Program-made: the position numbers and the translations under genes
Shown: positions 2,389 to 59,964 of the stretch, in pieces
How positions within the stretch are numbered: position 1 is the first letter of the stretch
How the letters are laid out: each line of letters opens with the position of its first letter
Notes under the pieces: generated by a model
Seen by the model: the letters and a program-made list of their open reading frames with translations, nothing else
Database searches by the model: none
What the model was told of the DNA's origin: nothing
Source: an uncultured Flavobacteriaceae bacterium
GTDB taxonomy: Bacteria > Bacteroidota > Bacteroidia > Flavobacteriales > Flavobacteriaceae
Assembly (NCBI GenBank): GCA_943842245.1
Contig: CALTAJ010000001.1
Location: 825,919-889,918 of the forward strand
DNA length: 64,000 nt
Direction: 5' to 3'

Positions 2389-2389
2389 T

Positions 2390-3607
2390 TTACATCTGAT
2401 AAACCCATTCTTTTGGATTAAGAGCATCAACATTATTGAAAATTCCAAACTGAAACTGTGTTTTCCCAGTTTGTTGGTTTGTAAAAACCTCCCCTATGGC
2501 TTGCTTAGCATTTACTTTCTCCCCTTTTGTAACATAAAGTTTTGCCAAGTTGGTATATAAGGTAATGAAATTTCCGTGACGTATTAATACTGAGGGATTA
2601 CTACCTTTAATTACAATTACTGACATAACCTCTCCCTCAAAAACTGCACGAACTTGTGCTAAAGGCTCTGTTGCTAAAATTACTCCGTTACTTTGAATAG
2701 TAGTTGTTTTTACAACAGGGTGCCTTTGTCTACCAAAACTTTGAACTACTACCCCTTTTTCTAATGGCCAGGGTAGACGTCCCTTATTTGCCTTGAAATT
2801 ATCTGCAATCAATTTTGCCTCAGGTGTCAACTGAAAAGTTTTCTTTCGTTTTTTGCCCAAAGCTTCATTTGATGCAGCAATTGCTTCTCGAATTAATCGA
2901 TTTATCTCACGGTCAATTGCTTTTTGTTGTTTTTCTTTTTTTGAAATTTGAGAAGCTAATGAAGTTTGTTTTCGTTCTAAAGTTTTAATCAAAGATTTTT
3001 GATCCTGTGCATCTTTTTCTATTTGTTGTTGAACAAGTCGATTTTCCTCAATTAAAAGAATTTTTTCAGCTTTTTCATTATTTAATGTTTGGTTGAGTTC
3101 TTGGAGTAATTTTGTTTTATTTGCAATAGCTTTCCCCTGTTTTCTTCTGTAGCTGGCATATTGTTTTAAATATTGAACTCGTTTATATGCCTGAAGAAAA
3201 CTTTCTGAGGAAAATAAAAACATTAATCGATTTTGCAAAGATTTACTTTCGTATGATTTTTGAATCAAATTAGCATATTCATCTTTGAGATTCCTTAATT
3301 CTAAACGATTTGTTGAAATATTTCTTTCATTTATACTAATCCTTGTTGTAAGAAGATTAGCTTGCTCATTAGTTACTTTTATAAGTTCTAAACGGACATT
3401 GAGTTTGACCTGAAGGTCTTCAACTTGAGTCAATGCACTTTTTCTTGTTTTTATATTATTAAAAAGAATACTATTAATTTGTTTTATCTCTTTTTTTAAG
3501 CGGAGTCTTTGAGCTTCTAATTCCTTTTGTTTTTTTGAGGTTTGCTGAGCTTGAATAATTACAAATCCCAAAACAAAAAATATTAGGAAATAAAAACTTT
3601 TCTTCAT
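2390..3607 (-). CDS. EnvC-like murein hydrolase activator (coiled coil plus degenerate M23/LytM domain)
   Basis: 405 residues: a Sec signal peptide (to about residue 20, ending IIQAQ), long coiled coils over about 22-245, and a C-terminal LytM domain (about 275-405, from GRLPWPLEKG). The zinc ligands of active M23 peptidases are not conserved: the HxxxD region reads QSNGVIL and the HxH region reads TQFQFGIF. That pattern fits EnvC, a catalytically dead factor that activates periplasmic amidases during cell separation. It is encoded directly after the DUF4292 lipoprotein gene, with which it shares an operon. A scaffold role other than amidase activation cannot be excluded. Confidence 0.88.
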   Translation of the reverse strand: MKKSFYFLIFFVLGFVIIQAQQTSKKQKELEAQRLRLKKEIKQINSILFNNIKTRKSALTQVEDLQVKLNVRLELIKVTNEQANLLTTRISINERNISTNRLELRNLKDEYANLIQKSYESKSLQNRLMFLFSSESFLQAYKRVQYLKQYASYRRKQGKAIANKTKLLQELNQTLNNEKAEKILLIEENRLVQQQIEKDAQDQKSLIKTLERKQTSLASQISKKEKQQKAIDREINRLIREAIAASNEALGKKRKKTFQLTPEAKLIADNFKANKGRLPWPLEKGVVVQSFGRQRHPVVKTTTIQSNGVILATEPLAQVRAVFEGEVMSVIVIKGSNPSVLIRHGNFITLYTNLAKLYVTKGEKVNAKQAIGEVFTNQQTGKTQFQFGIFNNVDALNPKEWVYQM

Positions 3608-4387
3608 TTAAAGCTTAATTTTAGAATAACCTTGGGGGATTTCAAAGGGAAAAGTTAGTCCTTCCGTTAAATAAGTCCTTGTAAATTCAAGATCTAAAGA
3701 TTGGGTTTCTTCACCATCAAAGAGAATAACTTTTATGAAACTAGGAATAGATTTACCTTCTAGTCTGATATGTCGTATATATTTTATTGAAATTGAATAT
3801 TTACTCCCTGGGACAATAATCCGCTGTTCCTTCAATAAAAAACTTACAGGATCAAAAAATAAAGTAGGCTTTAGACCTAAACGTTTAACCTGAGGAATAA
3901 GAATGTAATACTGAGGATTCGATATTTGTTTCCACTTTCCAAGTCCTGGATCCAGTATAGGCTTTCCCAAAAATATATTTTCAATATCTGAATACCTAAA
4001 ATTTGTTCCAAAGGGTCTATTTATTAGATCGAACCCTCCCTCAAAATAAGTTTTTTGGAATTTTTCATAAAAAGAAACCTTATCGGGAGTTATCATTAAT
4101 TTAGCAATTGGAATCAACATAGTTGCGGTTAACCATAATTTTTTTTTGTTTTCCATTCTAAGTTGAACAATAACTTGTTGTTCACGCTTACCGTTGTCAT
4201 ATGTGGCTTTAATACGAGAACGAACTTTATCTACTCTAGGATAATTACTTTTTATCTTGGAAACTAGGGACTCTAAATTGACATTTTTAAGGGGTCTATT
4301 AGTCGGTAGAACAGCAACAGTTTTACAAGAAATTAGAAACAGTATTGAGGAGAATAAAATTAAACCACTATTAAAATACTTTTTCAT
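3608..4387 (-). CDS. DUF4292 family lipoprotein
   Basis: 259 residues starting with a lipoprotein signal (SSILFLISC, lipidated Cys at about 22). The body matches the Bacteroidota DUF4292 pattern (VRSRIKATYDNGKREQQVIVQLRMEN, KLWLTATML, PDKVSFYEKFQKTYFEG, FLGKPI), which resembles LolA/LolB-like beta-rich lipid carriers. It is probably anchored in the outer or inner membrane facing the periplasm. The stop codon abuts the start of the EnvC-like gene, so the two are translationally linked. A TPR gene that often stands upstream in relatives is absent. The specific function is unknown. Confidence 0.85.
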   Translation of the reverse strand: MKKYFNSGLILFSSILFLISCKTVAVLPTNRPLKNVNLESLVSKIKSNYPRVDKVRSRIKATYDNGKREQQVIVQLRMENKKKLWLTATMLIPIAKLMITPDKVSFYEKFQKTYFEGGFDLINRPFGTNFRYSDIENIFLGKPILDPGLGKWKQISNPQYYILIPQVKRLGLKPTLFFDPVSFLLKEQRIIVPGSKYSISIKYIRHIRLEGKSIPSFIKVILFDGEETQSLDLEFTRTYLTEGLTFPFEIPQGYSKIKL

Positions 4388-13313: not shown

Positions 13314-13670
13314 TTATCTAAATCGTCTTGCTAAAAGAAAAATCTCCGCAATTAATCCTAATGAATAAGGAACAAAAAAAATGAAAAACTCCTTTTTTAA
13401 AATATTACCGTCTAATCTGAATTTGGGGTAGAAAAACAGAAAATATATTATTAGTTTTAAAGCAATCGTTAATAAATATATGCTAGCAAGATTTTTATTA
13501 TTCTTATGGATCCCATAGTTTAACAAAAATAAAGCCAATAAAGCCATAAGTATGTTCACAATATAGCTTTGAATCAAAAAATGTTTAAATTCTGGTAAAA
13601 ATTTTAAGTGTATTGCAAAAACGCTTATAAAGGTGAATAAAAGAAAAATAAAATAGAGAGTATATCTCAT
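13314..13670 (-). CDS. Small four-helix membrane protein of the atp locus (AtpI-like position)
   Basis: About 118 residues, almost entirely four hydrophobic segments (YTLYFIFLLFTFISVFAI, YIVNILMALLALFLL, IYLLTIALKLIIYFLFFY, FFVPYSLGLIAEIFLLARR). I chose the ATG at 13670 because it overlaps the stop of the preceding gene as ATGA; an ATG four codons upstream is also possible. Gene order atpZ - this gene - atpB is typical for flavobacteria, where such proteins stand where AtpI stands elsewhere and may help c-ring assembly or Mg uptake. It may belong to the DUF6168 group; I am not certain. Confidence 0.75.
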   Translation of the reverse strand: MRYTLYFIFLLFTFISVFAIHLKFLPEFKHFLIQSYIVNILMALLALFLLNYGIHKNNKNLASIYLLTIALKLIIYFLFFYPKFRLDGNILKKEFFIFFVPYSLGLIAEIFLLARRFR

Positions 13671-13882
13671 GACTGGTCCCAAAAACTTTTGCTTTGTTTA
13701 TAAATCATAAAAACTATTGAAACCAATCCTAAAGTGCTTGAAATTAAAACATAAAGTTTTCCAGATGACTGAAGCGCGAAGTCTAAATATTGCCCTAAAC
13801 GAATACTCGCCCACATTATTAATGCGATCTGAAAGGCTAGACTAGAGAATATTAGCCACTTTTTTGGCTTTTTTCTCTTCAT
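13667..13882 (-). CDS. AtpZ/AtpI-like two-helix membrane protein
   Basis: 71 residues with a basic start (MKRKKPKKW) and two membrane segments (LIFSSLAFQIALIMWASIRLGQYLDF and LYVLISSTLGLVSIVFMIY). This is the standard F0F1-ATPase-associated AtpZ/AtpI pattern with an xxGxxLD-type turn between helices. It overlaps the 3' end of the bactofilin gene by 41 bases and the next membrane gene by 4, showing tight co-expression. Confidence 0.85.
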   Translation of the reverse strand: MKRKKPKKWLIFSSLAFQIALIMWASIRLGQYLDFALQSSGKLYVLISSTLGLVSIVFMIYKQSKSFWDQS

Positions 13883-14249
13883 TAATATTATTTAATTTCT
13901 TAACTCCATCTTGTTCTGAATGCATCGCACAATTCGCATTAAAAGTAGCCCCAGACTCAACTATAAGTTTTTGAATGTGAACCTTCCCTTCTACATTTGA
14001 ACCCTTTTTTAAATTCAAAATTCCAGAAGCAGTAAGTTCTCCATTGAAAACACCTTCTATATCAGCATTTTCGCAAAACAGCTTACCTTTTACTTGTGCA
14101 TCTTTTCCAATAATAACTTTTCCTGTTGTAATCAAATGACCATCTAAGGTCCCATCAATTCGTATATCTGTTTTCGCATTAATTGTACCTGTTAGAATAG
14201 TATTCTTATCAATCTTACTATACTGTCCATTACTATCTACTGCTCTCAT
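13842..14249 (-). CDS. Bactofilin (polymer-forming cytoskeletal protein)
   Basis: 135 residues with the bactofilin beta-helix core: NTILTGTINAKTDIRIDGTLDGHLITTGKV is followed by repeated GKD/GKLF-type turns to about residue 105, then a short charged tail. Bactofilins assemble into filaments without nucleotide and often recruit cell-wall or secretion factors to the inner membrane. The start ATG overlaps the sprE stop (TAATG), so translation is coupled to the type IX secretion lipoprotein gene. Confidence 0.92.
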   Translation of the reverse strand: MRAVDSNGQYSKIDKNTILTGTINAKTDIRIDGTLDGHLITTGKVIIGKDAQVKGKLFCENADIEGVFNGELTASGILNLKKGSNVEGKVHIQKLIVESGATFNANCAMHSEQDGVKKLNNINEEKKAKKVANIL

Positions 14250-16714
14250 TATAATTTAATTTTCCAAGTTTTATTTTTTAAATAATCTTGATATTGGGAC
14301 GTTAAAGCTACAAAATTATGTTCTTTTAACAGATTAGATGACTTAAATTGCATTTTTGCCTTACACATTTCAATATTTTTTGGGTCACGAATTCCGTGTA
14401 CTACAACGAATATATAATCTTTGTTATAAGTGTCTATGCTTAAAGTCCATCTTTTATTATGCTTAGCTAAAACTTCCTTCAATGAATTAAAGAATATTTC
14501 TGTTTTTTCTCTTTCTAATTCCTTAAAAGGAAAAATCCACTTGTAGTTCTTATAAACTAGCCCTGTGTCTTCCAAATTATTTAATTTTTCAATTTGATTA
14601 ATAAGGCCTTTAGCATAAATACCTTCCTCAAATGCACTAAATGTTGTTGCAACTTCCATTAAAGATTCTTTCCAGGTCTGTATTCCATTTAAACGTCCTA
14701 AAGAATTAGCCTTTAGCAAACTTATTTTTGATTCCAATTGCTTGCCACTTGCCATTACTGTTAATAATTCTATCTCTTCCAAGGTCTCTATAAGCTTTTG
14801 CTCTTTATAGAGCTTAAGAGCATTTTCATATAGCTTTTCTGGTGTTACTGTTCCAGTAGAGTTATAGTTTTTTTGATTAGATAATATTCTCGCAAATGGT
14901 GTATCAGGATAGTTTTTAATTAGATCTATTTTATAGTTTTCTGCTACATCAGTTTTCTTTTTTTCTTCCATTCGATAAAGGTGATATAACGCTTGGACTC
15001 GAATCTCTTTGGGGGGATTAAGTGATAGAACTTTTTTTAAGCGCTCCGTAGCTAACGGAAAATCATTAAACTTCTCCTTATAAATTAGTCCTATTTGTAA
15101 GTAAGCTTTTTGATTGGTTAGAATTAAGCTATCCTTTTCTTTTTGGGTTTGAGGTAATGATGCAACAAAATTTTCTGGTTTTTCTTGAATAATTGCTTTA
15201 ATTGAAATTGGCTGATTACTTTTCGACTCTATCGCAATTGAATTCAAAATTGAACTTGCATTTCTCCAGTTATCTGTATTTGGACGATTACCCCAATTCG
15301 CTAAGTAAGCCTGTCTTCCCTTAGATACCTGACTTGGATTGTAAAAATAAAAAGAGGTTTTAGATCTGTTTAAAAGTTGAAACCGTTTTTCATTAACCTC
15401 TTCTTTCAGCTTCAAAGCTTCTTTTTCTTGTTTTGAGTTGATCAGGTTTTCAAAATAAATAAGTTGTTCTTTTTTTGAAAGCGTCATTAAATATATAATA
15501 CTATCGGTTTGTTTAATATTTTGTTCATAGAAAATAACTTCTGAAAGATTTTCCCTTTTTCTTTTAATTTTTTTAAAGGCTAAACTAGTTTCATCAAAAA
15601 GTGGTAATAGTTTGTCTAAATACTTTCCTGAAATAAAATAGTTTCCCTCCTTAAAGTGATAGTCTGCTAAGTCTTTATTATTTTCTATCTGAGTATATGG
15701 ATCTAAATATGGTGAGTCTATTGATCGGTCAAAATAAACTAAAGCAAGACTGTCTTCTTTTTGCTTTAAATATAAATTTCCTATAGCACGATTTACGAAA
15801 TGCTCAAAAGGCTGATTTTCATAGTTTTTTAAAATCTTTTGTAAAAAACTAACCCGGTCAGTTAAAGTATTTAAGGTGTCTAAAAGGGTTTTTTTTATTT
15901 TGGCCTGAAGCAAGAATTTTTTAGGAGCTTTCCGTTTTAAAGCAATTATCCCCTTAAAAGCCCATTCCGCTGAGTCTCTTTTCCCTAAAGATTCAAAAAG
16001 TTGTCCCGTAATAAAAAGATAGCGTGCCTTATTCTTTCTTTTTGGCGCTTCTAAAGCTGCTCTTTTTATGTAGAATGAAGCAGAGTCTAACTGTTTTAAA
16101 TTCAAAAACGATTCAGCAAGAGTTGCGTTTGCAAGAGAGTAAAACTTATTACTAGGAAAAATCGAGCGAGCCAAAGGTCTTAGGTTCTCAATCGCCAATT
16201 CTTCATTTCTAAGTCGAATATTTGTTTTTTCTCTCCAAATTTTGCCTTCAACATAGCTGTTTCGATTTGTGGGGCTTTCCAACAAAAAATTAAAGGCTTC
16301 AAGTGCTGGGAAAAACCGCCTGTCAAAATAGCGCGCTTTGCCTAGCAATAAATAAGCATCGTCTATCTGACGGTTATATTGTATATCATTAATTTTAAGG
16401 GAATGCTTTTGTATTGCTTTGACGGCTTTTTCTTCTGCTCGATCAAAACCCGGAATTATAGTGGTTTCGTCAATATTTTCTCCTCTTAAATTTATCGGTT
16501 CTACGGGTAGTAATTCATAAAAATTTTCTTCAAACGCATCTGATAAAATTTCCTCCCCAATTGAAAAAGCCTCTTTTCCATTAAATAAAACATTGAATTT
16601 GGTTGTTAGAGTATGATACTCTTGATTTAATATCCCCTTTTTTGTTGTACTACAAGAGTTGAAAAAAAGAGTTACGATTAGGGGAAAATAAAATATTGAA
16701 CGTTTTAAATTCAT
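14249..16714 (-). CDS. sprE: Type IX secretion / gliding lipoprotein SprE (PorW)
   Basis: 821-residue lipoprotein (signal YFPLIVTLFFNSC, lipidated Cys at about 20) made largely of helical TPR-like repeats (ADYHFKEGNYFISGKYLDKLL, AYLQIGLIYKEKFNDFPLATERLKKVL, ALKLYKEQKLIETLEEIELL). The start of the mature part, STTKKGILNQEYHTLTTKFNVLFNGKEAF, is characteristic of SprE/PorW. SprE/PorW is an outer-membrane-associated periplasmic lipoprotein required for type IX secretion and, in gliders, for surface motility. The order sprE - bactofilin - atpZ - atpB is conserved in many flavobacteria. It links this region to the T9SS substrate and SprF gene at the right end. Confidence 0.93.
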   Translation of the reverse strand: MNLKRSIFYFPLIVTLFFNSCSTTKKGILNQEYHTLTTKFNVLFNGKEAFSIGEEILSDAFEENFYELLPVEPINLRGENIDETTIIPGFDRAEEKAVKAIQKHSLKINDIQYNRQIDDAYLLLGKARYFDRRFFPALEAFNFLLESPTNRNSYVEGKIWREKTNIRLRNEELAIENLRPLARSIFPSNKFYSLANATLAESFLNLKQLDSASFYIKRAALEAPKRKNKARYLFITGQLFESLGKRDSAEWAFKGIIALKRKAPKKFLLQAKIKKTLLDTLNTLTDRVSFLQKILKNYENQPFEHFVNRAIGNLYLKQKEDSLALVYFDRSIDSPYLDPYTQIENNKDLADYHFKEGNYFISGKYLDKLLPLFDETSLAFKKIKRKRENLSEVIFYEQNIKQTDSIIYLMTLSKKEQLIYFENLINSKQEKEALKLKEEVNEKRFQLLNRSKTSFYFYNPSQVSKGRQAYLANWGNRPNTDNWRNASSILNSIAIESKSNQPISIKAIIQEKPENFVASLPQTQKEKDSLILTNQKAYLQIGLIYKEKFNDFPLATERLKKVLSLNPPKEIRVQALYHLYRMEEKKKTDVAENYKIDLIKNYPDTPFARILSNQKNYNSTGTVTPEKLYENALKLYKEQKLIETLEEIELLTVMASGKQLESKISLLKANSLGRLNGIQTWKESLMEVATTFSAFEEGIYAKGLINQIEKLNNLEDTGLVYKNYKWIFPFKELEREKTEIFFNSLKEVLAKHNKRWTLSIDTYNKDYIFVVVHGIRDPKNIEMCKAKMQFKSSNLLKEHNFVALTSQYQDYLKNKTWKIKL

Positions 16715-16944
16715 ATGATTTAGTTACTTATTAATAACTGAAAATGATAAATTTTAGTATTTCATCATTATAAAAATAGATTTATTCGTATTCTAAAGTT
16801 TTTATTCTCATAAATTATTTGATTTATTAAGAGAAAGATTCGTTTACATTTTTAAATTTAATCCGTGTTCTATTAGAAAAAAATAATAGAATTAATTTAT
16901 CTTTTTTAGCAATTATCCTTCTATCCTATAAGTAATCATTTTTT

Positions 16945-48828: not shown

Positions 48829-50625
48829 TTAGTCATTTAGTTTGAGAACAGCCATAAATGCTTGCTGAGGTATTTCCACATTACCTACCTGACGCATTTT
48901 CTTTTTACCCTTTTTTTGCTTTTCTAGTAATTTTCGTTTACGAGAGATATCTCCTCCATAGCACTTGGCAGTGACATCTTTTCTTAAAGCCTTTATAGTT
49001 TCTCTAGAAATGATTTTAGCTCCTATAGCTGCTTGAATTGGAATATCAAATTGTTGGCGAGGAATGAGCTCCCTCAATTTTTCACACATTTTTTTCCCAA
49101 TATTGTAGGCATTATCTGCATGAATTAAAGCAGAAAGCGCATCAACTTGATTAGAATTCAAAAGAACATCAACTTTAACTAATTTTGAAGGACGCATTCC
49201 AATTGGACTATAATCAAAAGACGCATACCCTTTTGATACTGTTTTCAGACGATCATAAAAGTCAAAAACTATTTCAGCTAAAGGCATGTCAAACGTGAGC
49301 TCAACCCTTTCCGGTGTAAGATAATTTTGATTTGTTATTTCCCCACGCTTTTCTATACTTAGCGACATAACATTTCCTACAAATTCAGATTTTGTAATAA
49401 TAGAAGCCTTAATGTATGGCTCTTCAACTCTATCGATAGCAGATGGATCTGGGAGGTCTGAAGGATTGTTGACCCATAAAACTTCATCTGGATTTTTTCT
49501 TGTAAAAGCCTGATAGGAAACATTAGGAACTGTTGTGATAACTGGCATATTGAACTCCCGCTCCAAACGTTCCTGAATTATTTCTAGGTGTAACATCCCA
49601 AGAAAACCACATCGAAATCCAAAGCCAAGAGCTGCGGAGCTTTCCGGAAAAAAAACCAGAGACGCATCATTTAACTGAAGCTTTTCCATGGAAGCCCTTA
49701 ATTCTTCATAGTCTTCAGTATCTACGGGATAAATTCCAGCAAAGACCATAGGTTTTACTTCTTCAAAACCGTCAATGGCATTTTGAGTTGGATTTTCAGG
49801 ACTTGTTATAGTGTCTCCAACCTTAACCTCTTTAGCTTCTTTTATCCCAGTAATAAGATAGCCAACGTCACCTGCAAAAATTTCTTTTTTTGGCTCTTGT
49901 GTTAGCTTTAAAGTACCTATCTCGTCAGCAGTGTAATTTTTTTCAGTCGCAATAAACTGAATTTTTTGTCCCTTTTTAATAGAGCCATTGATTACTCTAA
50001 AGTAAGTTTCTATACCCCGAAAAGGATTGTAAACTGAGTCGAAAATTAAAGCCTGTAAGGGTTGATCAAGGCTTCCCTTTGGAGCCGGAATCCGTTCAAT
50101 GATTTCTGTTAAGATCTCCTTAATTCCTTGACCAGTTTTAGCAGAGGCAGGAATTACATCTTCAGCTTTACACCCAAGTAAATTAATTATATCATCCGTT
50201 ACTTCATCCGGATTGGCAGAGGGTAAATCAATTTTATTAAGCACGGGGATGATTTCTAAGTCATTTTCAAGAGCTAAATAGAGGTTTGAAATAGTCTGAG
50301 CTTGAATGCTTTGAGCAGCATCAACAATTAATAATGCACCCTCACAGGCGGCAATTGAACGAGAAACTTCATAAGAAAAATCTACATGGCCAGGAGTATC
50401 TATTAGGTTAAGGATATAGTCTATTCCTCCAAACGTATATTCCATTTGAATTGCATGTGACTTAATTGTAATGCCTCGTTCTCGCTCCAAATCCATGTTG
50501 TCTAAAAGTTGGTCTTGTTTTTCACGATCTGTTACTGATCCTGTGAAATCGAGGAGTCGGTCTGCCAAGGTGCTTTTACCGTGGTCAATGTGGGCAATAA
50601 TACAAAAGTTTCTGATATTCTTCAT
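48829..50625 (-). CDS. lepA: Elongation factor 4 (LepA)
   Basis: Ribosome-binding GTPase. 598 residues from ATG 50625 ([25 protein letters not shown]). G1 AHIDHGKS, G3 DTPGHVDF, G4 NKID, and the LepA-specific C-terminal domain ([46 protein letters not shown]). A nine-codon in-frame extension to a TTG at 50652 overlaps the promoter box and is not used. An AAGGATGGAG sequence lies upstream of the ATG. Confidence 0.99.
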
Positions 50626-50649
50626 ACAGCTCCATCCTTCATAGCAGTG

Positions 50650-50657
50650 CAAATATA
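50650..50657 (-). promoter_or_regulatory. TAnnTTTG promoter box (TATATTTG) of lepA
   Basis: TATATTTG on the minus strand, 24 bases before the lepA ATG at 50625; it overlaps the TTG that would otherwise extend the frame. Confidence 0.6.
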
Positions 50658-50774
50658 CAAGTTTGTATTTTGTGTCACCGCCCTTTAATAAAACTTTTAA
50701 ACTTGAGAAATGAATTATAAAGGATGAGAGAAAGCATGTTAATGAAAGAAATTTATAAAGCGCATTCTTTTCAT

Positions 50775-50782
50775 TACTTTTG
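50775..50782 (+). promoter_or_regulatory. TAnnTTTG promoter box (TACTTTTG) of dusB
   Basis: TACTTTTG ends 16 bases before the TTG start of dusB at 50799. Confidence 0.6.
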
Positions 50783-50798
50783 AAAAAATTTTAGCAAT

Positions 50799-51791
50799 TT
50801 GGTCAAAATCGGTGACATTAAATTAAATTCATTTCCATTACTTTTAGCCCCAATGGAGGACGTTAGCGATCCACCGTTTCGTGCTCTATGTAAGGAAGGA
50901 GGGGCTGATGTGGTCTACACTGAATTTATATCAAGTGAGGGGTTGATCCGTGACGCAGCTAAAAGTGTTCAAAAACTTGATATTTATGAGAAGGAGCGTC
51001 CAGTAGGTATTCAAATTTTTGGTGCGAATCTTGATTCGATGCTTCGCTCTGTAGAAATTGTAGAAGAAACGAATCCAGATATAATTGATATTAATTTTGG
51101 TTGTCCTGTAAAAAAAGTAGTTTGTAAAGGAGCCGGAGCAGGAATCCTCAAAGACATACCGAAGATGGTAAAATTAACTGAGGCCATGGTAAAGCACACG
51201 AATATTCCAGTTACTGTAAAAACTAGACTGGGGTGGGATCTTGATTCTATTAAAATTGTTGAGGTAGCAGAACGACTTCAAGATGCAGGTTGTGCAGCAA
51301 TATCTATCCATGGGAGAACACGTGCCCAAATGTATAAGGGGAATGCTGATTGGAGCCTCATTGCTAAGGTTAAAAATAATTCTAGAATGCATATCCCTAT
51401 ATTCGGAAATGGAGATGTTAACACACCTGAACGAGCTATGGAAATGAGAGACCAATATGGTTTAGACGGCGCTATGATAGGTAGAGCAAGTATTGGGAAT
51501 CCTTGGTTTTTCAACCAAGTAAAACATTTTATGGAGACGGGAGTTCATGCATCTTCACCCTCTATAGAAGAAAGAGTTGAAGTAGCACGAAGACATCTTG
51601 AAATGTCTGTTGCTTGGAAAGGAGAAGTATTAGGCGTGCTAGAAACACGTAGACATTACACAAATTACTTCAAGGGATATGATAATTTCAAGCCTTATCG
51701 AACAAGAATGGTTACATCTAATTGCTCAAGCGAAGTCTATAATGTCCTAAACGAAGTTCTTGAAAAATTCGCAACTCAAGAGGTGTCATAA
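50799..51791 (+). CDS. dusB: tRNA-dihydrouridine synthase (DusB type)
   Basis: FMN enzyme that reduces uridines in tRNA D-loops. 330 residues. Family motifs: LLLAPMEDVSDPPFRALCKEGGADVVYTEF, the catalytic Cys in INFGCPVKKVVCKGAGAGIL, VTVKTRLGWD, ISIHGRTRAQMYKG and DGAMIGRASIGNPW. The start is TTG at 50799, giving MVKIGDIKLNSFPLLLAPMEDV, which matches relatives; no in-frame ATG precedes the conserved block. The last 6 bases overlap the convergent permease gene. Confidence 0.96.
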   Translation: MVKIGDIKLNSFPLLLAPMEDVSDPPFRALCKEGGADVVYTEFISSEGLIRDAAKSVQKLDIYEKERPVGIQIFGANLDSMLRSVEIVEETNPDIIDINFGCPVKKVVCKGAGAGILKDIPKMVKLTEAMVKHTNIPVTVKTRLGWDLDSIKIVEVAERLQDAGCAAISIHGRTRAQMYKGNADWSLIAKVKNNSRMHIPIFGNGDVNTPERAMEMRDQYGLDGAMIGRASIGNPWFFNQVKHFMETGVHASSPSIEERVEVARRHLEMSVAWKGEVLGVLETRRHYTNYFKGYDNFKPYRTRMVTSNCSSEVYNVLNEVLEKFATQEVS

Positions 51792-52985
51792 TCTTATTTT
51801 TTTACTTAACCCACGAGTTGCCCAAGCCGAACTTATACTTCCAAGAATCATTAAAGTTCCAAATACAATTATAATATTCTTGAAATCAAAAATAATAGGA
51901 TATGCTAAGCTAGTTCCTGGGACATATATAAAAGGAAAATAGAATTGTATTAAAACCAATATAGACCCCAAAAACAAACCGATTAACCCCCCAAACCCAC
52001 AAATTAAAAGACCAAGAGAAAAGAATATTTTATGAATTCCCCTTGGATCTGCTCCAAAAGTTAACAGGGTATTTAGTTGAGACTTTTTATCTAAAATCAT
52101 CATTATAAGCGCACCAACTACATTAAATAAAGCTATAATCATCACAAGTGTAAAAATAAAATAGATAGCCAAATGTTCAATATTCAGCATACGATAAAGT
52201 GCCATATTTTGTTCTTCTCTTGAAACAATTCTGATAGGACTATTAAAAAAAGACCGGATACTATTTTCAAATGAAGACTTTTGAGTTCCAGGCATTGTTT
52301 TTAAAACAATAGAAGAATACTGGTTGGGTGCAAGCTCTAAAAGGTCTTGACCGAAAGATAGAGAAGAGAATATATACTTTTTATCTAAATCTTCACTAAT
52401 TTGATATAACCCTGAAACTATTGCTGGAGAGGAAGTGAAAGGATTTTGATCAAGTAAGGTTTGTCTATTTTTTTTTGGCATTGTGACATTTAAATACGAA
52501 TTGTAGTCATATACACTCAAACCCATGTTTCCAGCAATTCCAAATCCAACGACAACATCGGACCCTTTATGTGAAAGCCAGTCTCCAAGAGCAATCAAAT
52601 TTTCCAAGGGAACTACTTGTGTGTATTTAGGAGATACAGCTTTAAGAAAAGCAACTTGACTTTTTTCTTTAAAGGACAAAAAGACTTTTTCTTCAATTAG
52701 TGGTGCAACAGCATGAATTACTGAGAGATTTTCAATTTGATTTAAGGTTTGATCATTTACACTAAAAAATGAACCACGCTCAGGAAGTATTTCAAAGTCA
52801 GGATCAAAATTATTACTAAAAGAAAGGCCAAAGTCTTTAAGGCCAGAAAACGCACTTAGCACAATAAAAAGGCTAGTGGTAGAGACAACAACCATAAAAA
52901 AAGCAAAAGTGTTGATTCGATTTATTACGGTTTGTTTACTTTTCGAAAAAAAGTAGCGCAAAGCGATTTTTAAAGAGTATGTCAT
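51786..52985 (-). CDS. FtsX/LolE-type ABC transporter permease
   Basis: 399 residues: a first membrane helix (INTFAFFMVVVSTTSLFIVLSAFSG), a periplasmic MacB-like domain of about 200 residues, and three C-terminal helices (YFIFTLVMIIALFNVVGALIMMI, GLLICGFGGLIGLFLGSILVLI, IIVFGTLMILGSISSAWA). This topology is that of LolC/LolE and FtsX permeases, which work with a separate ATPase. In Bacteroidota such proteins may release lipoproteins. No ATPase gene is adjacent; it lies 7 bases after rbfA. Confidence 0.88.
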   Translation of the reverse strand: MTYSLKIALRYFFSKSKQTVINRINTFAFFMVVVSTTSLFIVLSAFSGLKDFGLSFSNNFDPDFEILPERGSFFSVNDQTLNQIENLSVIHAVAPLIEEKVFLSFKEKSQVAFLKAVSPKYTQVVPLENLIALGDWLSHKGSDVVVGFGIAGNMGLSVYDYNSYLNVTMPKKNRQTLLDQNPFTSSPAIVSGLYQISEDLDKKYIFSSLSFGQDLLELAPNQYSSIVLKTMPGTQKSSFENSIRSFFNSPIRIVSREEQNMALYRMLNIEHLAIYFIFTLVMIIALFNVVGALIMMILDKKSQLNTLLTFGADPRGIHKIFFSLGLLICGFGGLIGLFLGSILVLIQFYFPFIYVPGTSLAYPIIFDFKNIIIVFGTLMILGSISSAWATRGLSKKIRL

Positions 52986-52992
52986 TATTTAT

Positions 52993-53400
52993 TTAATGCT
53001 TATTTTTTCTCTGTTTTCCGTCATTATAAGAAATTTTGATTGGGTTCTCTCCGTTGCTTAGATCTTTTTCTATAGTCTCTATATAATCTAAGGAATCGTC
53101 TAGATAAAATTTTAATTCAGGAATTCTTCGTAGCTGGTTTTTCATCCTCTGAGATAAGTCGTGGCGAATTTGAAAACTACTATTCTTAATGTTTTCAAAA
53201 TAATTCAAAGCTGTATCGTTTGGAAAAACACTGAGATATATTTTAGCTATAGAAAGGTCAGCGGTTACGTGGACTTTGGTAATGGAAACCATTAGATTTG
53301 AGACACTACCTTTTCGAATCGCTTCTTGTAAAAGGGAAGCTATTTCTTGCTGTAGAACTGTATTAATTTTCTTTTGCCTAGGAGTTTCTTGTTTTTCCAT
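52993..53400 (-). CDS. rbfA: Ribosome-binding factor A
   Basis: 30S maturation factor. 135 residues with a KH-like fold: RQKKINTVLQQEIASLLQE, LMVSITKVHVTADLSIAKIYLSVFP, LRRIPELKFYLDDSLDYIETIE. Ends with a basic tail (DGKQRKNKH). Part of a leftward unit with the DUF2452 gene and the permease gene. Confidence 0.95.
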   Translation of the reverse strand: MEKQETPRQKKINTVLQQEIASLLQEAIRKGSVSNLMVSITKVHVTADLSIAKIYLSVFPNDTALNYFENIKNSSFQIRHDLSQRMKNQLRRIPELKFYLDDSLDYIETIEKDLSNGENPIKISYNDGKQRKNKH

Positions 53401-53427
53401 AATTTAAAAATAAAGAGAAAATAGAGC

Positions 53428-53823
53428 TTAAATACGCTCCCATTTATATTCACCATTTAAACGAAAAGATCCCAAATACTTTTTTTTCCATTGATTAGGC
53501 TCTATAAGAGAGAGGAAGGTGTTTTTTTCTCCCTGGTAAAGGAAATATAATTCACCAACAACCGGTTCAAATTTAAAATCTGCAGAATATACTTTTTGGG
53601 TGTCTGCAGCTTCAGAAACAAAGGATTTAATTTTTTTTTGAAGGTCAGTAAGTTCAGCTTGAAATTGTTTGGAAACTTTGTCAATCCCCTTTTTTTTAAA
53701 AGAATCAACATTAGGTACTTCAATGATTGGCCCATTTGGGCTACTTGCATAGGGTAAGAGTTTTGCAAAATAAGTTTCGTGATTTTCATTCCATACTATT
53801 GAATCTGACTTTTTTTCTTTCAA
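53428..53823 (-). CDS. DUF2452 family protein
   Basis: 131 residues, soluble, no signal or membrane helix. Recognised by PYASSPNGPIIEVPNVDSFKKKGIDKV, FKFEPVVGELYFLYQGEKNTFLSLIEPNQW and KYLGSFRLNGEYKW, the DUF2452 pattern widespread in Bacteroidota. Function unknown. Upstream of rbfA by 27 bases. Confidence 0.85.
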   Translation of the reverse strand: MKEKKSDSIVWNENHETYFAKLLPYASSPNGPIIEVPNVDSFKKKGIDKVSKQFQAELTDLQKKIKSFVSEAADTQKVYSADFKFEPVVGELYFLYQGEKNTFLSLIEPNQWKKKYLGSFRLNGEYKWERI

Positions 53824-54396: not shown

Positions 54397-56187
54397 GTGA
54401 AAAAGACTTTCATATTAATACTTCTTTCATCATTACTCATTTCTTGTAAGTCAAAGACCGATTCAAAATTACAGCCAAACGTAATTCTGTTTCTAACAGA
54501 CGATCAAGGGTGGGGGGATCTAAGTTATAATGGAAATAAAGATCTACTCACTCCTAACATAGATAAAATTGCTTTAAGTGGAGTAAAATTTGATCGTTTT
54601 TTTGTTAGTCCGGTTTGCTCCCCAACTAGGGCCGAAATTTTAACCGGTAGACATCATGTTAGAACAGGTGTATATGATGTTTCACTTGGTGGAGAAAGAA
54701 TAAATTCTGACGAGCAAACAATAGCAGATATTTTTAAAGCTTCAGGGTATAGAACAGCAGCCTTCGGAAAATGGCATAATGGAATGCAAGCACCTTATCA
54801 CCCTAATACAAGGGGATTTGATGAATTTTATGGATTTTGTTCAGGGCACTGGGGGAATTACTTTAACCCTGTTTTAGAAAACAATGGGGAATTAGTCAGA
54901 GGCAATGGTTTTATTACTGATGATTTAACAACTCATGGAATAGAATTCATTAATAAAAATAAAGACAACCCATTTTTGCTCTACATGCCATTTAATACTC
55001 CTCACAGTCCAATGCAAGTTCCAGACAAATATTGGGATAAATTCAAGAATAAAGATTTAACCCAAAAAGGTACATTATCAGATCTTCCTGAGGATAAATA
55101 CTCAGGCACTAATATTAAAGGAGAAAATCACTCAAGGGCTGCACTAGCAATGTGTGAAAATATTGATTGGAATGTTGGAAGAATAATAAAAACTTTAAAA
55201 GCACTTAAAATTTATGAAAACACAATAATTATTTATCTTTCAGATAATGGACCCAATGGTCACAGATGGAATGATGGAATGAAAGGGATAAAGGGATCAA
55301 CGGATGAAGGCGGAACTAGATCACCCATGATTATTAGTTGGAAGGGAAATATGCCTGAAGGGAAAAACGTAAAGAAGATAGCATCAGGAATTGATTTATT
55401 ACCAACTTTAATCGACCTAACCGGAATAAAGGCCAAATTAGATAAGAATTTAGACGGAATTAATTTAAGAAAGTTAATCTATCAGGAAGATAAAGATTGG
55501 CCTGACAGGTATATATACAACTATTGGAGAGGGAGATTGAGTTTAAGAAGTCAAAACTTCAGACTTGACAATAAGAATAATTTATATAATATGAATGAAG
55601 ATCCAAATCAACTGCAAAATGTTTCTTCAAGGTATAATGAAACTTTTGAGCTTATGAAAAAAGCCAAAACGAAATGGGAGAATGAATTTTTAACCAACAT
55701 AAAACCAAAAGTCAAAAGAGCTTTTGTGATAGGGCATCCTAAATTAAAAAACACTCAAATACCAGCTCGAGATGCAAAAGCAAACGGATTAATTAAACGA
55801 TCTAATTATTATCCAAATTGTAGCTATATGACTAATTGGGTCAATATAGAAGATACTATAACATGGGATGCTGAAGTTGCTGAGGATGGAAAGTTTGAAG
55901 TGGTTATCTATTACACTTGTGCAATGGATGCAGTAGGATCAGAAATTGAATTGAGTTTTTCAGATTCAAGTATTTCCAAGATTATAACTGAATTTTATGA
56001 TCCAAAAGAGCATGGAGATGAAAACGACAGGGCCCCTAGAATTGAATCCTATGTAAAAGATTTTATTTCCTTAAAAATGGGGGTTATTGATTTAAAAAAA
56101 GGGAAAGGAACTCTTTTACTAAAGGGATTAAAAATGACTGGTAAAGAGCTTATAGATTTTAGATTGATAATGCTTAAAAGAATTTAA
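54397..56187 (+). CDS. Sulfatase (arylsulfatase family), lipoprotein
   Basis: 596 residues. GTG start gives MKKTFILILLSSLLISC (lipidated Cys17). The formylglycine motif C74-S-P-T-R lies in FFVSPVCSPTRAEILTGRH; metal ligands are in ILFLTDDQGWGDL and IIYLSDNGPNG, and GKWHNG is the catalytic Lys/His block. The core runs to about 430. The last 150 residues (ITWDAEVAEDGKFEVVIYYTC ...) look like a beta-sandwich carbohydrate-binding-type domain seen in other marine sulfatases. Likely desulfates algal or animal glycans outside the inner membrane; substrate unknown. Followed by a serine hydrolase gene 35 bases away. Confidence 0.93.
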   Translation: MKKTFILILLSSLLISCKSKTDSKLQPNVILFLTDDQGWGDLSYNGNKDLLTPNIDKIALSGVKFDRFFVSPVCSPTRAEILTGRHHVRTGVYDVSLGGERINSDEQTIADIFKASGYRTAAFGKWHNGMQAPYHPNTRGFDEFYGFCSGHWGNYFNPVLENNGELVRGNGFITDDLTTHGIEFINKNKDNPFLLYMPFNTPHSPMQVPDKYWDKFKNKDLTQKGTLSDLPEDKYSGTNIKGENHSRAALAMCENIDWNVGRIIKTLKALKIYENTIIIYLSDNGPNGHRWNDGMKGIKGSTDEGGTRSPMIISWKGNMPEGKNVKKIASGIDLLPTLIDLTGIKAKLDKNLDGINLRKLIYQEDKDWPDRYIYNYWRGRLSLRSQNFRLDNKNNLYNMNEDPNQLQNVSSRYNETFELMKKAKTKWENEFLTNIKPKVKRAFVIGHPKLKNTQIPARDAKANGLIKRSNYYPNCSYMTNWVNIEDTITWDAEVAEDGKFEVVIYYTCAMDAVGSEIELSFSDSSISKIITEFYDPKEHGDENDRAPRIESYVKDFISLKMGVIDLKKGKGTLLLKGLKMTGKELIDFRLIMLKRI

Positions 56188-57696: not shown

Positions 57697-57773
57697 GGTC
57701 CTATAGCTCAGTTGGTTAGAGTAGCTGACTCATAATCAGTTGGTCCCTGGTTCGAGCCCAGGTGGGACCACCA
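57697..57773 (+). tRNA. tRNA with CAU anticodon (Met elongator or Ile2)
   Basis: Complete cloverleaf of 77 bases with encoded CCA: acceptor GGTCCTA pairs with TGGGACC, D-arm AGCTCAGTTGGTTAGAGT, anticodon loop CTCATAA with CAT at 57731-57733, T-arm CCTGGTTCGAGCCCAGG. CAU can be elongator Met or lysidine-modified Ile2; I could not decide. Its downstream flank carries a Rep-like gene and a terminator, consistent with tRNA-linked insertion. Confidence 0.95.
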
Positions 57774-57818: not shown

Positions 57819-57976
57819 ATTTGTCCCTATATGTGTCCCCAATATTTCTGTTTACCTAAAAAACTGTATTCATTTTTGATTTAGCTTTGATGTCAGTAAA
57901 ATCAAGAGATAGAGGCGTTTTATACTAAAATTTATGTGGATGCCTTAATCCCTGCTATTATATAAACCAAAGCACT

Positions 57977-58345
57977 ATGAAAATACATAATGAATACGCA
58001 AGATTTATCCAGAACTTTGATTGGAACTACTTTATAACATGTAGAACCCCATATAAGATACACACCAAAACGGTAAGAGATTGGGTTGACAAACTATTTA
58101 GTAGATCATATAAGGTTGACAAAGTATTCTTTGTTTCTGAAAGAGATAAAGGAGATTGGAATAATCTACATGTACATATGTTGCTTGATACTAATACTGA
58201 TATGACTTATAAAGAAGTTAGATATGGATTAGGTAATATATCAGTAGGAGACTATCAACCTGTATACAACAACGAAGAGGTTTGTAAATATGTAACTAAG
58301 CACATTGGTAAAGATGTGGACTATGACATTGTACTTAAAAGCTAA
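57977..58345 (+). CDS. HUH-endonuclease (Rep-like) small protein
   Basis: 122 residues with the three motifs of HUH nickases in order: motif I WNYFITCRTPY (about 16-26), motif II LHVHMLLD (H65-x-H67), and motif III CKYVTKHIGKD with candidate nucleophile Tyr105 and Lys108 (Y-x2-K). Such proteins nick single-stranded DNA in rolling-circle plasmids, ssDNA phages or Y1 transposons. The size is minimal, with no helicase domain. It is followed by a 374-bp stem-loop-rich spacer and a 65-residue gene. Not a RAYT in strict sense, because motif III resembles plasmid/phage Rep. No integrase is nearby. Identity as HUH is inferred from motifs only. Confidence 0.65.
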   Translation: MKIHNEYARFIQNFDWNYFITCRTPYKIHTKTVRDWVDKLFSRSYKVDKVFFVSERDKGDWNNLHVHMLLDTNTDMTYKEVRYGLGNISVGDYQPVYNNEEVCKYVTKHIGKDVDYDIVLKS

Positions 58346-58545
58346 AACTTTTCATCCCTTTCTTATTTTCTTAAAGAGGGGTGGGTTTCAGAGATTCGTT
58401 TTCTTATTTAGAGTTAGTTCTGTGATATAGATATACCCTATCACCTCAGTATTTCTAACATCCCCACATTAAACCCTTGTTGATTATCATATGTAGCTGA
58501 ATAACATGTATCTACATATAACGCAATACCAGGGTTTCCCTAAAG

Positions 58546-58553
58546 TATATTTG
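58546..58553 (+). promoter_or_regulatory. TAnnTTTG promoter box (TATATTTG), first of a tandem pair
   Basis: First of two promoter-like boxes 28 bases apart and in the same direction, upstream of the hairpin cluster and the 65-residue gene. Confidence 0.5.
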
Positions 58554-58573
58554 GACATAAAGTAGTGTTATAT

Positions 58574-58581
58574 TATCTTTG
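58574..58581 (+). promoter_or_regulatory. TAnnTTTG promoter box (TATCTTTG), second of a tandem pair
   Basis: Ends 14 bases before the first of three abutting hairpins. A transcript from here would begin at about 58588 and carry all three hairpins. Confidence 0.5.
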
Positions 58582-58595
58582 AGTAAGTATCAAGA

Positions 58596-58661
58596 ACGCT
58601 TATGCGTACCAACCGATCCTCTCGAGACACGGTGGTTTAGAATACGAGACGCTCGTCTAAA
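58596..58661 (+). other. Three abutting stem-loops (candidate structured RNA or Rep nicking origin)
   Basis: Hairpin 1: ACGC-TTAT-GCGT (58596-58607). Hairpin 2: ACC plus ACCG pair with CGGT plus GGT, with one bulged A (58608-58636), enclosing the palindrome TCTCGAGA. Hairpin 3: TTTAGA pairs with TCTAAA, with an inner CGAG/CTCG stem and ACG loop (58636-58661). The segment is clearly richer in G and C than its surroundings. No T-run follows, so it is not a terminator. Confidence 0.6.
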
Positions 58662-58719
58662 ATAATCGAGAAATCATATTCATCTTGGTCATAATTAATG
58701 TCTAACTAAAACTATTATT

Positions 58720-58917
58720 ATGGCAGTATTTTCAGGAGAAGTAACAATTAGAGTAAAGTTTAATAAGATCCAGATCCCAGTTGGATTTGGCATGACCTCA
58801 GCAATTATAAAGCATAGATGCGTAGAACAAGCTTATGCCATCTCCCCATGGTCTCAAATAAAGGATTCCAGAGATAAAAGGTTTGAGGTTACAGTGGAGA
58901 AAGAGGACATTATATAG
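58720..58917 (+). CDS. Unrecognised 65-residue protein of the Rep-like locus
   Basis: Starts MAVFSGEVTIRVKFNKIQIP and ends FEVTVEKEDII. No signal peptide or clear membrane helix; alternating hydrophobic and charged residues suggest a small beta-rich soluble protein. It contains one Cys and CVEQAYAISPWSQIKDS. The leader of about 130 bases carries the hairpin cluster and two promoters. I do not recognise a family. Confidence 0.55.
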   Translation: MAVFSGEVTIRVKFNKIQIPVGFGMTSAIIKHRCVEQAYAISPWSQIKDSRDKRFEVTVEKEDII

Positions 58918-58997
58918 GGTTTTTCTTTTACACCAATGCCTCCAATCCAAATCCTTCCTAATCTATTGATATCATTGCCTTAAGGTAGGAATCCTTT

Positions 58998-59048
58998 ATA
59001 GTGGTTTTAGGGGGGAGTTGTTTGGAGGAGGTTTGTAATGTGGTGGGG
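58998..59048 (+). other. G-rich tract between the 65-residue gene and the sprF-like gene
   Basis: Plus strand has GG, a run of six G, GGAGGAGG and GGTGGGG within about 50 bases, exceptional in this AT-rich window. It could fold as a two-tetrad or mixed G-quadruplex. Just before it lie the palindrome CCTTAAGG and a TTCCTA...TAGGAA inverted repeat (58958-58991), in the gap between two convergent genes. Confidence 0.5.
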
Positions 59049-59049
59049 A

Positions 59050-59964
59050 TTACTCTTGACCCTCTGGTCCTTGTTCAGTTGATTGATCACCTTCTCCTAG
59101 ATTGATTCTTAACACGATCTCATGGGTCTTTAAGTTAAGCTGTGAGAGTGAACTCACTGTTGGTGTTTCATAAGCGTATCCAATATCAAATCCTCCAAGA
59201 GAGACCAAAGCAAGTAGTCCAAAAGCACTACTTGTTCGGTAGGAGATCCCAACATCAAATTGATTTTGCCAGCTTAGCATCCCTGTAAAGTCTGTTGTAA
59301 CAGGCAGTCCTTTTACTTTTCTCATCATTACTGACGGCTTTATTAATAAGCCAGACCCTATTGGAAGATCTACTCCACCACCTAGATATGAGTGCACTCT
59401 GTCTTTAGCAGTTACTGCCAGGTTATCGTTTTCTCTTTTAACATTAAAGAGTCTAGGGATAGAAAAAGAAGCCCAAAAAATTTCTCCCTTTAAAAAGGCT
59501 CCAGCTCCTACATTTGGATTAAAACTTGATAATTCTTGTTGAGCTGGATCAGTAGGTGAATATGTGCTTAGTGCTCTTGGATCAGCACTATAAAAATTCC
59601 CTCCAGCTTTAAGCCCTAAATATAGCTGTGTGGATTCCATATCTAACTTGTATGAAAAATCTACATAAGCAAAGGTCTGCTGTTCTATAAATACTTTGTC
59701 TGAGACAACAGAGAGTCCTAATCCTACATTATTTTCTCTTTCTGAAGAATAGGAAAAGGCAAGTGTAGAGGGTGCATCTTGCATAGAAGACCATTGTCTT
59801 CTTGAAGTGAAGGCAAAGACATTCTTTCCTAAAGCTCCAGCGTAGGCAGGGTTAATAACATTCATATTATAGCGATACAAAGTATAGTAGCTTTCCTGCT
59901 GACTAAAAACTATCAGTGGAATAAAAGCTAAACCAATAAAGAATAATAGTCTTTTCATCATCAT
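59050..59964 (-). CDS. PorP/SprF family type IX secretion outer-membrane protein
   Basis: About 304 residues. Signal peptide (RLLFFIGLAFIPLIVFSQ) and then a beta-barrel-type body: YTLYRYNMNVINPAYAGALGKNVFAFTSRRQW and FSYSSERENNVGLGLSVVSD are the PorP/SprF hallmarks. These proteins handle or tether specific type B T9SS substrates, and the gene overlaps the stop of such a substrate gene. Three consecutive ATGs (59964, 59961, 59958) form an ATGATGATGA overlap with that stop, so the two are coupled. The open frame extends two further codons-plus to 59982 but that start is unlikely. Confidence 0.92.
   Translation of the reverse strand: MMMKRLLFFIGLAFIPLIVFSQQESYYTLYRYNMNVINPAYAGALGKNVFAFTSRRQWSSMQDAPSTLAFSYSSERENNVGLGLSVVSDKVFIEQQTFAYVDFSYKLDMESTQLYLGLKAGGNFYSADPRALSTYSPTDPAQQELSSFNPNVGAGAFLKGEIFWASFSIPRLFNVKRENDNLAVTAKDRVHSYLGGGVDLPIGSGLLIKPSVMMRKVKGLPVTTDFTGMLSWQNQFDVGISYRTSSAFGLLALVSLGGFDIGYAYETPTVSSLSQLNLKTHEIVLRINLGEGDQSTEQGPEGQE

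Follow-up and report, generated by a model that had tools for sequence, protein, structure and literature searches.

The stretch of DNA analysed here (the window) comprises 64,000 nucleotides (nt) from an uncultured Flavobacteriaceae bacterium (GenBank assembly GCA_943842245.1, contig CALTAJ010000001.1) whose genome of 2.08 Mb is 89.9% complete. Directly behind a tRNA-Met gene of the window lies a small island, ~1.25 kb in size, which is headed by a gene for a 122-amino-acid (aa) protein of the histidine-hydrophobic-histidine (HUH) class and carries a riboswitch and a gene for a 65-aa protein as cargo. Probably, the 122-aa protein is the replication nickase of a minimal, integrase-less and satellite-like tRNA island with riboswitch-controlled cargo. 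The parts are known ones, i.e., an HUH Rep fold, a tRNA island and an S-adenosylmethionine (SAM) riboswitch of class SAM-I/IV, and the combination is unusual: a class of islands that have no integrase and are headed by a minimal Rep like that of Sulfolobus islandicus rod-shaped virus 1 (SIRV1). The features are as follows, in positions within the window.

57697–57773, + strand: tRNA-Met (CAT), whose 3′ end bounds the island on the left (ARAGORN, Rfam)
57822–57839, + strand: direct repeat TGTCCC-N6-TGTCCC with a 12-base-pair (bp) offset, of the kind found after tRNA genes at islands
57943–57959, + strand: CCTTAATCCCTGCTATT, kept just 5′ of the HUH gene in relatives
57977–58345, + strand: predicted nickase, a 122-aa Rep-type HUH protein (open reading frame (ORF), alignment, AlphaFold2 model and structural matches)
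58370–58400, + strand: site after the HUH stop codon, GGGGTGGGTTTC..., a diverged form (by eye) of the GGGGCATGGGTTTTAG site that follows HUH in many relatives
58582–58674, + strand: SAM-I/IV riboswitch aptamer (RF01725; Rfam covariance model, 51.9 bits)
58720–58917, + strand: ORF of the 65-aa cargo protein (197 homologues; 38-sequence alignment)
58916–59051, + strand: G-rich intercassette repeat of type B, which closes the cassette (nhmmer; repeat model)

A terminator-like tail lies between tRNA-Met and the HUH gene, no regulator gene is found in the island, and a PorP/SprF gene on the opposite strand comes after the G-rich repeat. An earlier note, made from the sequence alone, had described a minimal HUH-nickase locus at this place. 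Its observation is confirmed and its interpretation partly supported; both ORFs are present as claimed, and so is the tRNA with its terminator-like tail in front of the unit.

The 122-aa HUH protein

Five residues, E55, H65, H67, Y105 and K108, are unchanged in all 33 aligned homologues, of which the remote ones are 23–40% identical. The two histidines form the HUH motif (H65-V-H67), while Y105 and K108 form the Y-x-x-K motif of the tyrosine helix, which covers residues 99–107 in the AlphaFold2 model. The model is an HUH palm (pLDDT 93.4, pTM 0.88). The palm fold and the conservation of H65, H67 and Y105, the two points on which the earlier note had staked its assignment, both hold. Both lists of structural matches are topped by Rep nuclease domains, and the nearest solved structure is SIRV1 ORF119 Rep (PDB 2x3g), which is also the sole confident PDB relative by sequence. 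Pfam searches at E ≤ 1 give just PF23343 REP_ORF2-G2P and PF21578 117-like_vir, both sub-threshold (the latter with 19.8 bits vs. a gathering score of 27; in a precomputed table, PF21578.5 is assigned to protein P0001, which is 100% identical), and hence no helicase, DDE or integrase domain, as had been read from the sequence. A Y1 transposase was rejected, because no Y1_Tnp profile, by which a REP-associated tyrosine transposase (RAYT) would be recognized too, is among these matches. The protein matches an unnamed PHROG family (E 6.6e-5) and no NCBIfam family.

Homologues are numerous, with 437 at E ≤ 0.001 among predicted proteins of other genomes and metagenomes. Among 14 intact HUH copies including that of the window (69 usable of 91 pairs), the median dN/dS is 0.098 and the maximum 0.316, indicating purifying selection. 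From the invariant residues, the model, the structural relatives and the dN/dS values, it therefore follows that the 122-aa protein is a conserved and selected Rep-type HUH protein. It is a predicted nickase with a single tyrosine, of Rep type and not a Y1 transposase; the earlier assignment to this type, within a reduced element behind a tRNA, stands.

Linkage to tRNA and tmRNA genes

A total of 36 HUH copies were examined, and 21 of them, having the N-terminus and at least 400 bp of upstream DNA, were counted; the 15 dropped copies are without upstream DNA (5) or N-truncated (10). The 3′ end of a tRNA or transfer-messenger RNA (tmRNA) gene is located ~200–300 bp upstream on the same strand in 20 of the 21, as a whole gene in 17 and as a 3′ fragment in three (L030, L064, and L095). 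The targets are tRNA-Met, tRNA-Ser(gct), tRNA-Ser(tga), tRNA-His, tRNA-Asn and tmRNA, and the HUH islands at these 3′ ends contain differing genes. As a control, 414 ORFs of at least 90 aa were taken from 23 stretches, which were partly selected for HUH presence: a tRNA or tmRNA 3′ end lies 150–350 bp upstream of 11, every one of which is an HUH gene. The T-loop motif of tRNA is absent within 420 bp of all 10 N-truncated copies, although in L063 a tRNA-like fragment lies at a greater distance upstream.

A repeat pair at exactly 12-bp offset is found 155–181 bp before HUH in 17 of the 20 tRNA-linked copies (37 of 1000 shuffles had any such match). L099 and L110 have none, and the match of L093 lies elsewhere and was not counted. 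Such pairs are widespread in the genus. Among 30 tRNA-Met-like loci, 21 have a readable tRNA 3′ end, and a pair at 11- or 12-bp offset, differing in sequence, follows within ~125 bp in 18 of these (34 of 1000 shuffles give one); those without are L118 (imperfect pair by eye), L128 (where the contig ends) and L134. Most tRNA-Met genes with a pair have no HUH. In L123, the pair is directly followed by a tyrosine integrase gene, and in L072 of the window's genome (G000), tRNA-Phe is followed by a repeat pair and a 515-aa integrase; in the HUH islands, HUH occupies the position where these two loci carry the integrase. Furthermore, tRNA 3′ fragments border other islands at tRNA-Met. The natural reading of the pairs is that of putative tyrosine-integrase attachment sites, a feature of tRNA islands generally, and the TGTCCC pair of the window likely represents integrase arm sites. 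Closer to HUH, the motif CCTTAAT is present in 22 of 23 upstream regions compared, copies with replaced upstream DNA (e.g., L015 C2:949) being excluded. CCTTAATCCCTGCTATT may be the nick site.

Distribution and mobility of the HUH gene

The genome containing the window has eight HUH matches, two of which are pieces of one copy, giving six further whole or broken copies beside that of the window. The minimal unit described earlier is thus present but not alone. Of 38 genomes in the genus, 17 have HUH matches, some of them fragments only, as do nine of 299 genomes drawn from the family, and a scan of genome contigs gave 11 named loci titled Bacteroidetes, Flavobacteriales, Flavobacteriaceae or Polaribacter.

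One genome (G340) has an HUH module near tRNA-Ser(gct) and another near tRNA-Ser(tga), which share 99.2% identity along 603 bp, extending from the 3′ end of the first tRNA to just past the HUH stop codon, with abrupt divergence beyond. A related module with 93.8% identity is found at the tmRNA of G325. In a tree of HUH genes, with starred support on just three of 14 inner branches, no clustering by tRNA species is seen: there are nine label changes vs. a shuffled mean of 10.1, and 46 of 200 shuffles are as low. The window HUH groups with the tRNA-His copy of another genome and not with the copies of its own genome, with support (84/87) short of the starred level. HUH occupies the orthologous tRNA-Met site in G000, G344, and G336; G338, G334, and G137 have different sequence there and no HUH match genome-wide. 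Comparison of these loci indicates that the left HUH module moves between sites. Because the same head gene adjoins several different tRNA and tmRNA genes in relatives, the island is likely a stripped-down mobile element.

As for the surroundings, a sulfatase gene (54397–56187) and a gene of beta-lactamase fold (PF00144; 56208–57446) lie just upstream of tRNA-Met. The latter did not serve as a synteny anchor; the upstream flank common to relatives is the region around 50003–53434. Another tiny integrase-less tRNA island, ~1.1–1.2 kb, lies behind tRNA-Met in G336 (L149) and G338 (L151). Its borders are the tRNA on one side and 14 bp repeated from the tRNA 3′ end on the other, and it contains an ORF just below the DUF1569 cut-off and a second short ORF.

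The riboswitch and the 65-aa gene

The space between the two genes had been noted as a stem-loop spacer. Stem-loops are indeed there, but they contain a SAM-I/IV riboswitch, whose covariance-model score exceeds the gathering score of 41.1 bits and whose aptamer starts 138 nt upstream of the 65-aa ATG. By folding energy, this region does not differ significantly from its shuffles (33 of 200 do equally well), so the riboswitch claim rests on the covariance model. The spacer thus holds a riboswitch of known class, which together with the 65-aa gene makes up a cargo cassette; a role as rolling-circle origin is not supported. The 65-aa gene had been described as one of unknown family; its function is indeed unassigned, but it belongs to a family of 197 proteins, with 17 invariant positions in the 38-sequence alignment. 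Its AlphaFold2 model is poor (64.7), and no fold is claimed.

The 65-aa gene is present in five of the 38 genus genomes at eight loci, where G304 and G337, sharing coordinates, are counted as one genome. The riboswitch is above the gathering score at four of the eight, namely in the window, at C2:367, in G337 and in G328, and the aptamer is nearly invariant across these four. A decayed or cut aptamer is visible at two G340 loci; none was found at the copies in G316, which is truncated, and in C4, which is broken. The copy at C2:367, a second one in the genome of the window, comprises riboswitch and gene with 91.7% identity to the window copy over 841 bp, together with a truncated HUH gene end, and a 43%-identical homologue with the riboswitch is located ~3 kb downstream of HUH at tRNA-Asn of G304. 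Riboswitch and 65-aa gene, as compared between loci, behave as one cassette, and the aptamer match predicts that the gene is likely under riboswitch control. More generally, HUH is followed by a recurring site and then by genes that differ from island to island. Part of the cargo is shared between genomes, e.g., between L017 and L030 (93.0% over 738 bp) and between L017 and L064 (87.8% over 469 bp).

G-rich repeats and cassette arrays

There is a G-rich tract at the end of the unit, as the earlier note had it, but it is not particular to this place: it is one copy of a repeat dispersed in the same and related genomes. The repeat occurs in 30 of the 38 genus genomes. In L017 (G000:C3, 1–8401, − strand), about eleven single-gene cassettes on the same strand and one opposite gene are arrayed behind an HUH remnant. 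The cassettes are small ORFs, many with lipoprotein-like starts, and many are separated by a terminator, a G-rich repeat and a promoter-like block. The same cassettes occur in more than one place and genome. Within one array of L015, a 140-aa gene cassette is present twice (13552–14180 and 16246–16874; 98.6% identical).

With 96 candidates scored per genome, the median number of repeat copies is four in the 17 genomes with HUH and one in the 21 without (p = 0.0024). A conserved hairpin of the cassette repeat was rejected, as the predicted foldings of 21 copies vary from copy to copy. A classical integron was rejected too: the best piece matching TIGR02249 in this 89.9%-complete genome reaches 76.6 bits vs. 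a cut-off of 265.

Distant kin and origin

Seven distant HUH loci (L056–L062) were examined. A tyrosine integrase and a gene of the helix-turn-helix (HTH) family HTH_17 stand beside HUH in four of them (L056, L057, L059, and L061). L060 has an HTH_17 gene beside HUH and no integrase in the stretch listed, and L058 and the truncated L062 have neither in theirs. The HTH genes of L057, L059, and L060 are excisionase-like by PHROG matches. In L057, a Terminase_2 (terminase small subunit) gene comes directly after HUH; a DUF5681 gene in L058 and a short unmatched gene in L061 take this place and, from the look of their sequences, are possible terminase small subunits. The nearest of the distant loci is L059. 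It has a TTGCC-N7-TTGCC pair beside the integrase and a tRNA-Ser-like 3′ fragment, as in the HUH-only tRNA-Ser islands (by eye). A 40%-identical HUH relative in G136 is accompanied by integrase and HTH genes, and its locus has a repeat pair and a tRNA-Ser-like 3′ fragment too. The best-supported origin is a satellite-like integrative element whose integrase would since have been lost.

Two observations may be added. In the genome of the window, L071 (G000:C1, ~1880–4245, − strand) has a 424-aa integrase (PF00589), an HUH-like 149-aa ORF (by eye, without a Pfam match) and a further ORF that matches HTH_17 below threshold; this element, which adjoins a tRNA-like 3′ fragment, is a possible helper. 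A 71-aa ORF of the PRPKGSQNKIT.. type, in L015 (4559–4774) and L016 (13858–14073), resembles a terminase-small-subunit remnant, the L016 copy being without a Pfam or PHROG match. The 3′ tail of this ORF is a dispersed 70-bp repeat found between cassettes and behind HUH.

Proposed mechanism and alternative explanations

The island lies directly 3′ of tRNA-Met, with the terminator-like tail, the direct-repeat pair and HUH as first gene. Its left module, i.e., the tRNA 3′ end, the repeat pair and HUH, appears by comparison to move among tRNA-Ser, -His, -Asn, -Met and tmRNA sites. Because the island is without its own integrase, its excision and integration are proposed to depend on tyrosine integrases acting in trans, supplied by related elements that have a similar repeat pair. 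HUH would nick one strand, perhaps at CCTTAAT before its own gene, and thereby start rolling-circle copying of the excised island. Packaging by a helper phage may be possible because one distant relative has a terminase small subunit gene next to HUH; for the HUH islands it is a guess. The cargo to the right of HUH is variable, and here the SAM-I/IV riboswitch and the 65-aa gene would be expressed according to the SAM level.

Several points weigh against this interpretation. There is no integrase in the ORF list between 57774 and 59049, and no terminase-like ORF in the island by ORF list and Pfam (a packaging site was not sought). By exact 12-mers, no right-hand copy of the tRNA end (attR) is found downstream of the islands in the window, L014, L016, L065, L066, L067, and L068, where the DNA searched extends only ~2 kb downstream in L068 and 6 kb in the window; because no such copy was found, integrase excision of the islands as now bounded is not supported. 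This missing right border is one of the two main weaknesses, the other being that the activity of HUH islands is predicted only: nicking, excision and transfer of DNA may each occur, as inferred from sequence. Three of the seven distant loci (L058, L060, and L062) show no integrase in the stretch listed. Foldseek against PDB gives no match at E ≤ 0.001 (best E 3.6e-3). One of the 21 counted copies, C2:949 (L015), has no tRNA, and one of the 23 upstream regions is without an exact CCTTAAT. A hairpin before HUH, present in a subset of the upstream regions only and missing in several including that of the window, is at most a possible origin. Finally, at completeness of at least 80% the difference in repeat number fades (p = 0.099, 13 vs. 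12 genomes), and G137 has eight repeat copies and no HUH; linkage between HUH and the repeat is not claimed because the difference is not significant at that completeness.

An alternative is that HUH itself is the insertion enzyme, performing single-strand cut-and-paste of the tRNA-3′-end/HUH module without integrase and without target duplication. That neither an integrase nor a right-hand tRNA copy was found agrees with this, as do the different targets of the left module (Met, Ser, His, Asn and tmRNA) and the 603-bp module that ends just past the HUH stop codon at two tRNA-Ser loci of one genome. However, the pairs at 11–12-bp offset after 18 of 21 readable tRNA-Met genes, mostly HUH-free, fit tyrosine integrases, and directly precede integrase genes in L123 and L072; neighbouring islands are bounded by tRNA 3′ fragments, and an integrase stands beside HUH in four distant kin. 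An HUH insertion enzyme is thus unlikely.

The window locus could also be what is left of an integrative element or satellite that is no longer active, with activity confined to copies elsewhere. Several broken HUH copies in the same genome, the right border that was not found and the size of just ~1.25 kb would suit a remnant, but the window copy has an intact frame and is among the 14 intact copies under strong purifying selection, which leaves this explanation with a small chance. A gene-capture system has a similarly small chance: a SIRV-like Rep nickase would place the ~600-bp module at the 3′ ends of tRNA and tmRNA genes and, via the repeats, gather and shuffle single-gene cassettes behind it, including SAM-riboswitch-controlled ones, integron-like with an HUH enzyme instead of an integrase as driver.

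A RAYT/REP-like role, in which HUH processes the G-rich repeat and builds single-gene cassette arrays like an integron with an HUH enzyme, is quite improbable. It draws on the mostly same-strand array with repeats behind an HUH remnant, on the same cassettes in different places and genomes, on the higher repeat counts with HUH and on the absence of an integron integrase above cut-off. Yet only 96 candidates were scored per genome, the difference fades among the more complete genomes and G137 has repeats in number and no HUH, as stated above, and ordinary homologous recombination between repeats would account for the shared cassettes.

A relic of a single-stranded DNA (ssDNA) phage or plasmid, as proposed earlier, has nothing specific in its favour. 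Descent from a replication gene of an ssDNA phage (microvirus or inovirus) is highly improbable: weak matches to PF23343 and to one microvirus Rep (E 9e-3) and the microviral and other ssDNA-virus Rep models among the viral fold matches speak for it, but SIRV1 Rep is the one relative of solved structure that is confident by sequence, the island has no further phage genes, no relatives were found among viral contigs by the patterns used, and the gene is selected, mobile and at the head of tRNA and tmRNA islands, with several kin beside integrase and HTH genes. A viral origin by direct relatives was likewise rejected, as phage records gave that one weak microvirus match, while neither the 65-aa protein nor the DNA had a match there.

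Comparison with known systems

SIRV1 ORF119 is the Rep protein of a rudivirus, an archaeal virus with a linear double-stranded DNA genome (PMC4187194), whereas the present gene lies in a bacterial tRNA island. A second comparison is with the phage satellites, i.e., phage-inducible chromosomal islands (PICI) and phage-inducible chromosomal minimalist islands (PICMI). According to PMC10803314, PICMI have a minimal gene set, integrate beside fis and encode a putative primase, and their concatemers are said to fit rolling-circle replication. The HUH islands resemble satellites in being small and site-specific, and in their distant kin, some of which have an integrase and an excisionase-like HTH, with a terminase small subunit in one of them. 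They differ in that the window island is without integrase, regulator and terminase. Of the PICI traits, an own integrase is thus absent from the window island and stands beside HUH in the four distant loci, and a packaging gene is likewise absent and present, as Terminase_2, in L057.

Nonreplicating Bacteroides unit (NBU) elements have a tRNA target, as in the HUH islands. The class of tyrosine integrase is shared between the HUH kin and such Bacteroidetes integrative and mobilizable elements (NBU-like; named in PMC11389934), but the HUH domain here is of a minimal Rep type, and no relaxase or mobilization module is seen. RAYT/TnpA-REP systems (PMC6006769, PMC8266576) also combine a tyrosine-kind HUH protein with dispersed genomic repeats; here, however, there is no Y1 transposase profile match, the gene is multi-copy, mobile and tRNA-linked, and a link to the repeat is not established. 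Chromosomal integrons share the arrays of single-gene cassettes separated by repeats, but no integron integrase above cut-off is found in the window genome. The riboswitch matches its class (RF01725) with an aptamer above the gathering score, while the gene behind it is an island cargo gene of unassigned function. The Charybdis elements of marine archaea (PMC12324425) are of another kind. The literature searched, which left out most subscription papers, gave no account of flavobacterial tRNA islands headed by HUH and no mention of PF21578.

Implications

Small-genome flavobacteria like the host of the window have small and fast-changing islands beside their tRNA genes, whose mobility is not understood. 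The rule that joins an HUH gene to a tRNA is easy to apply, and would help to find such islands in further genomes and in metagenomes. In addition, a mobile cargo gene is here joined to a metabolite switch of known class, SAM-I/IV. If the proposed mechanism is true, a Rep domain of 122 aa would suffice to keep an island mobile as long as it can borrow integrases, and this would matter for the question of how few genes a satellite needs.
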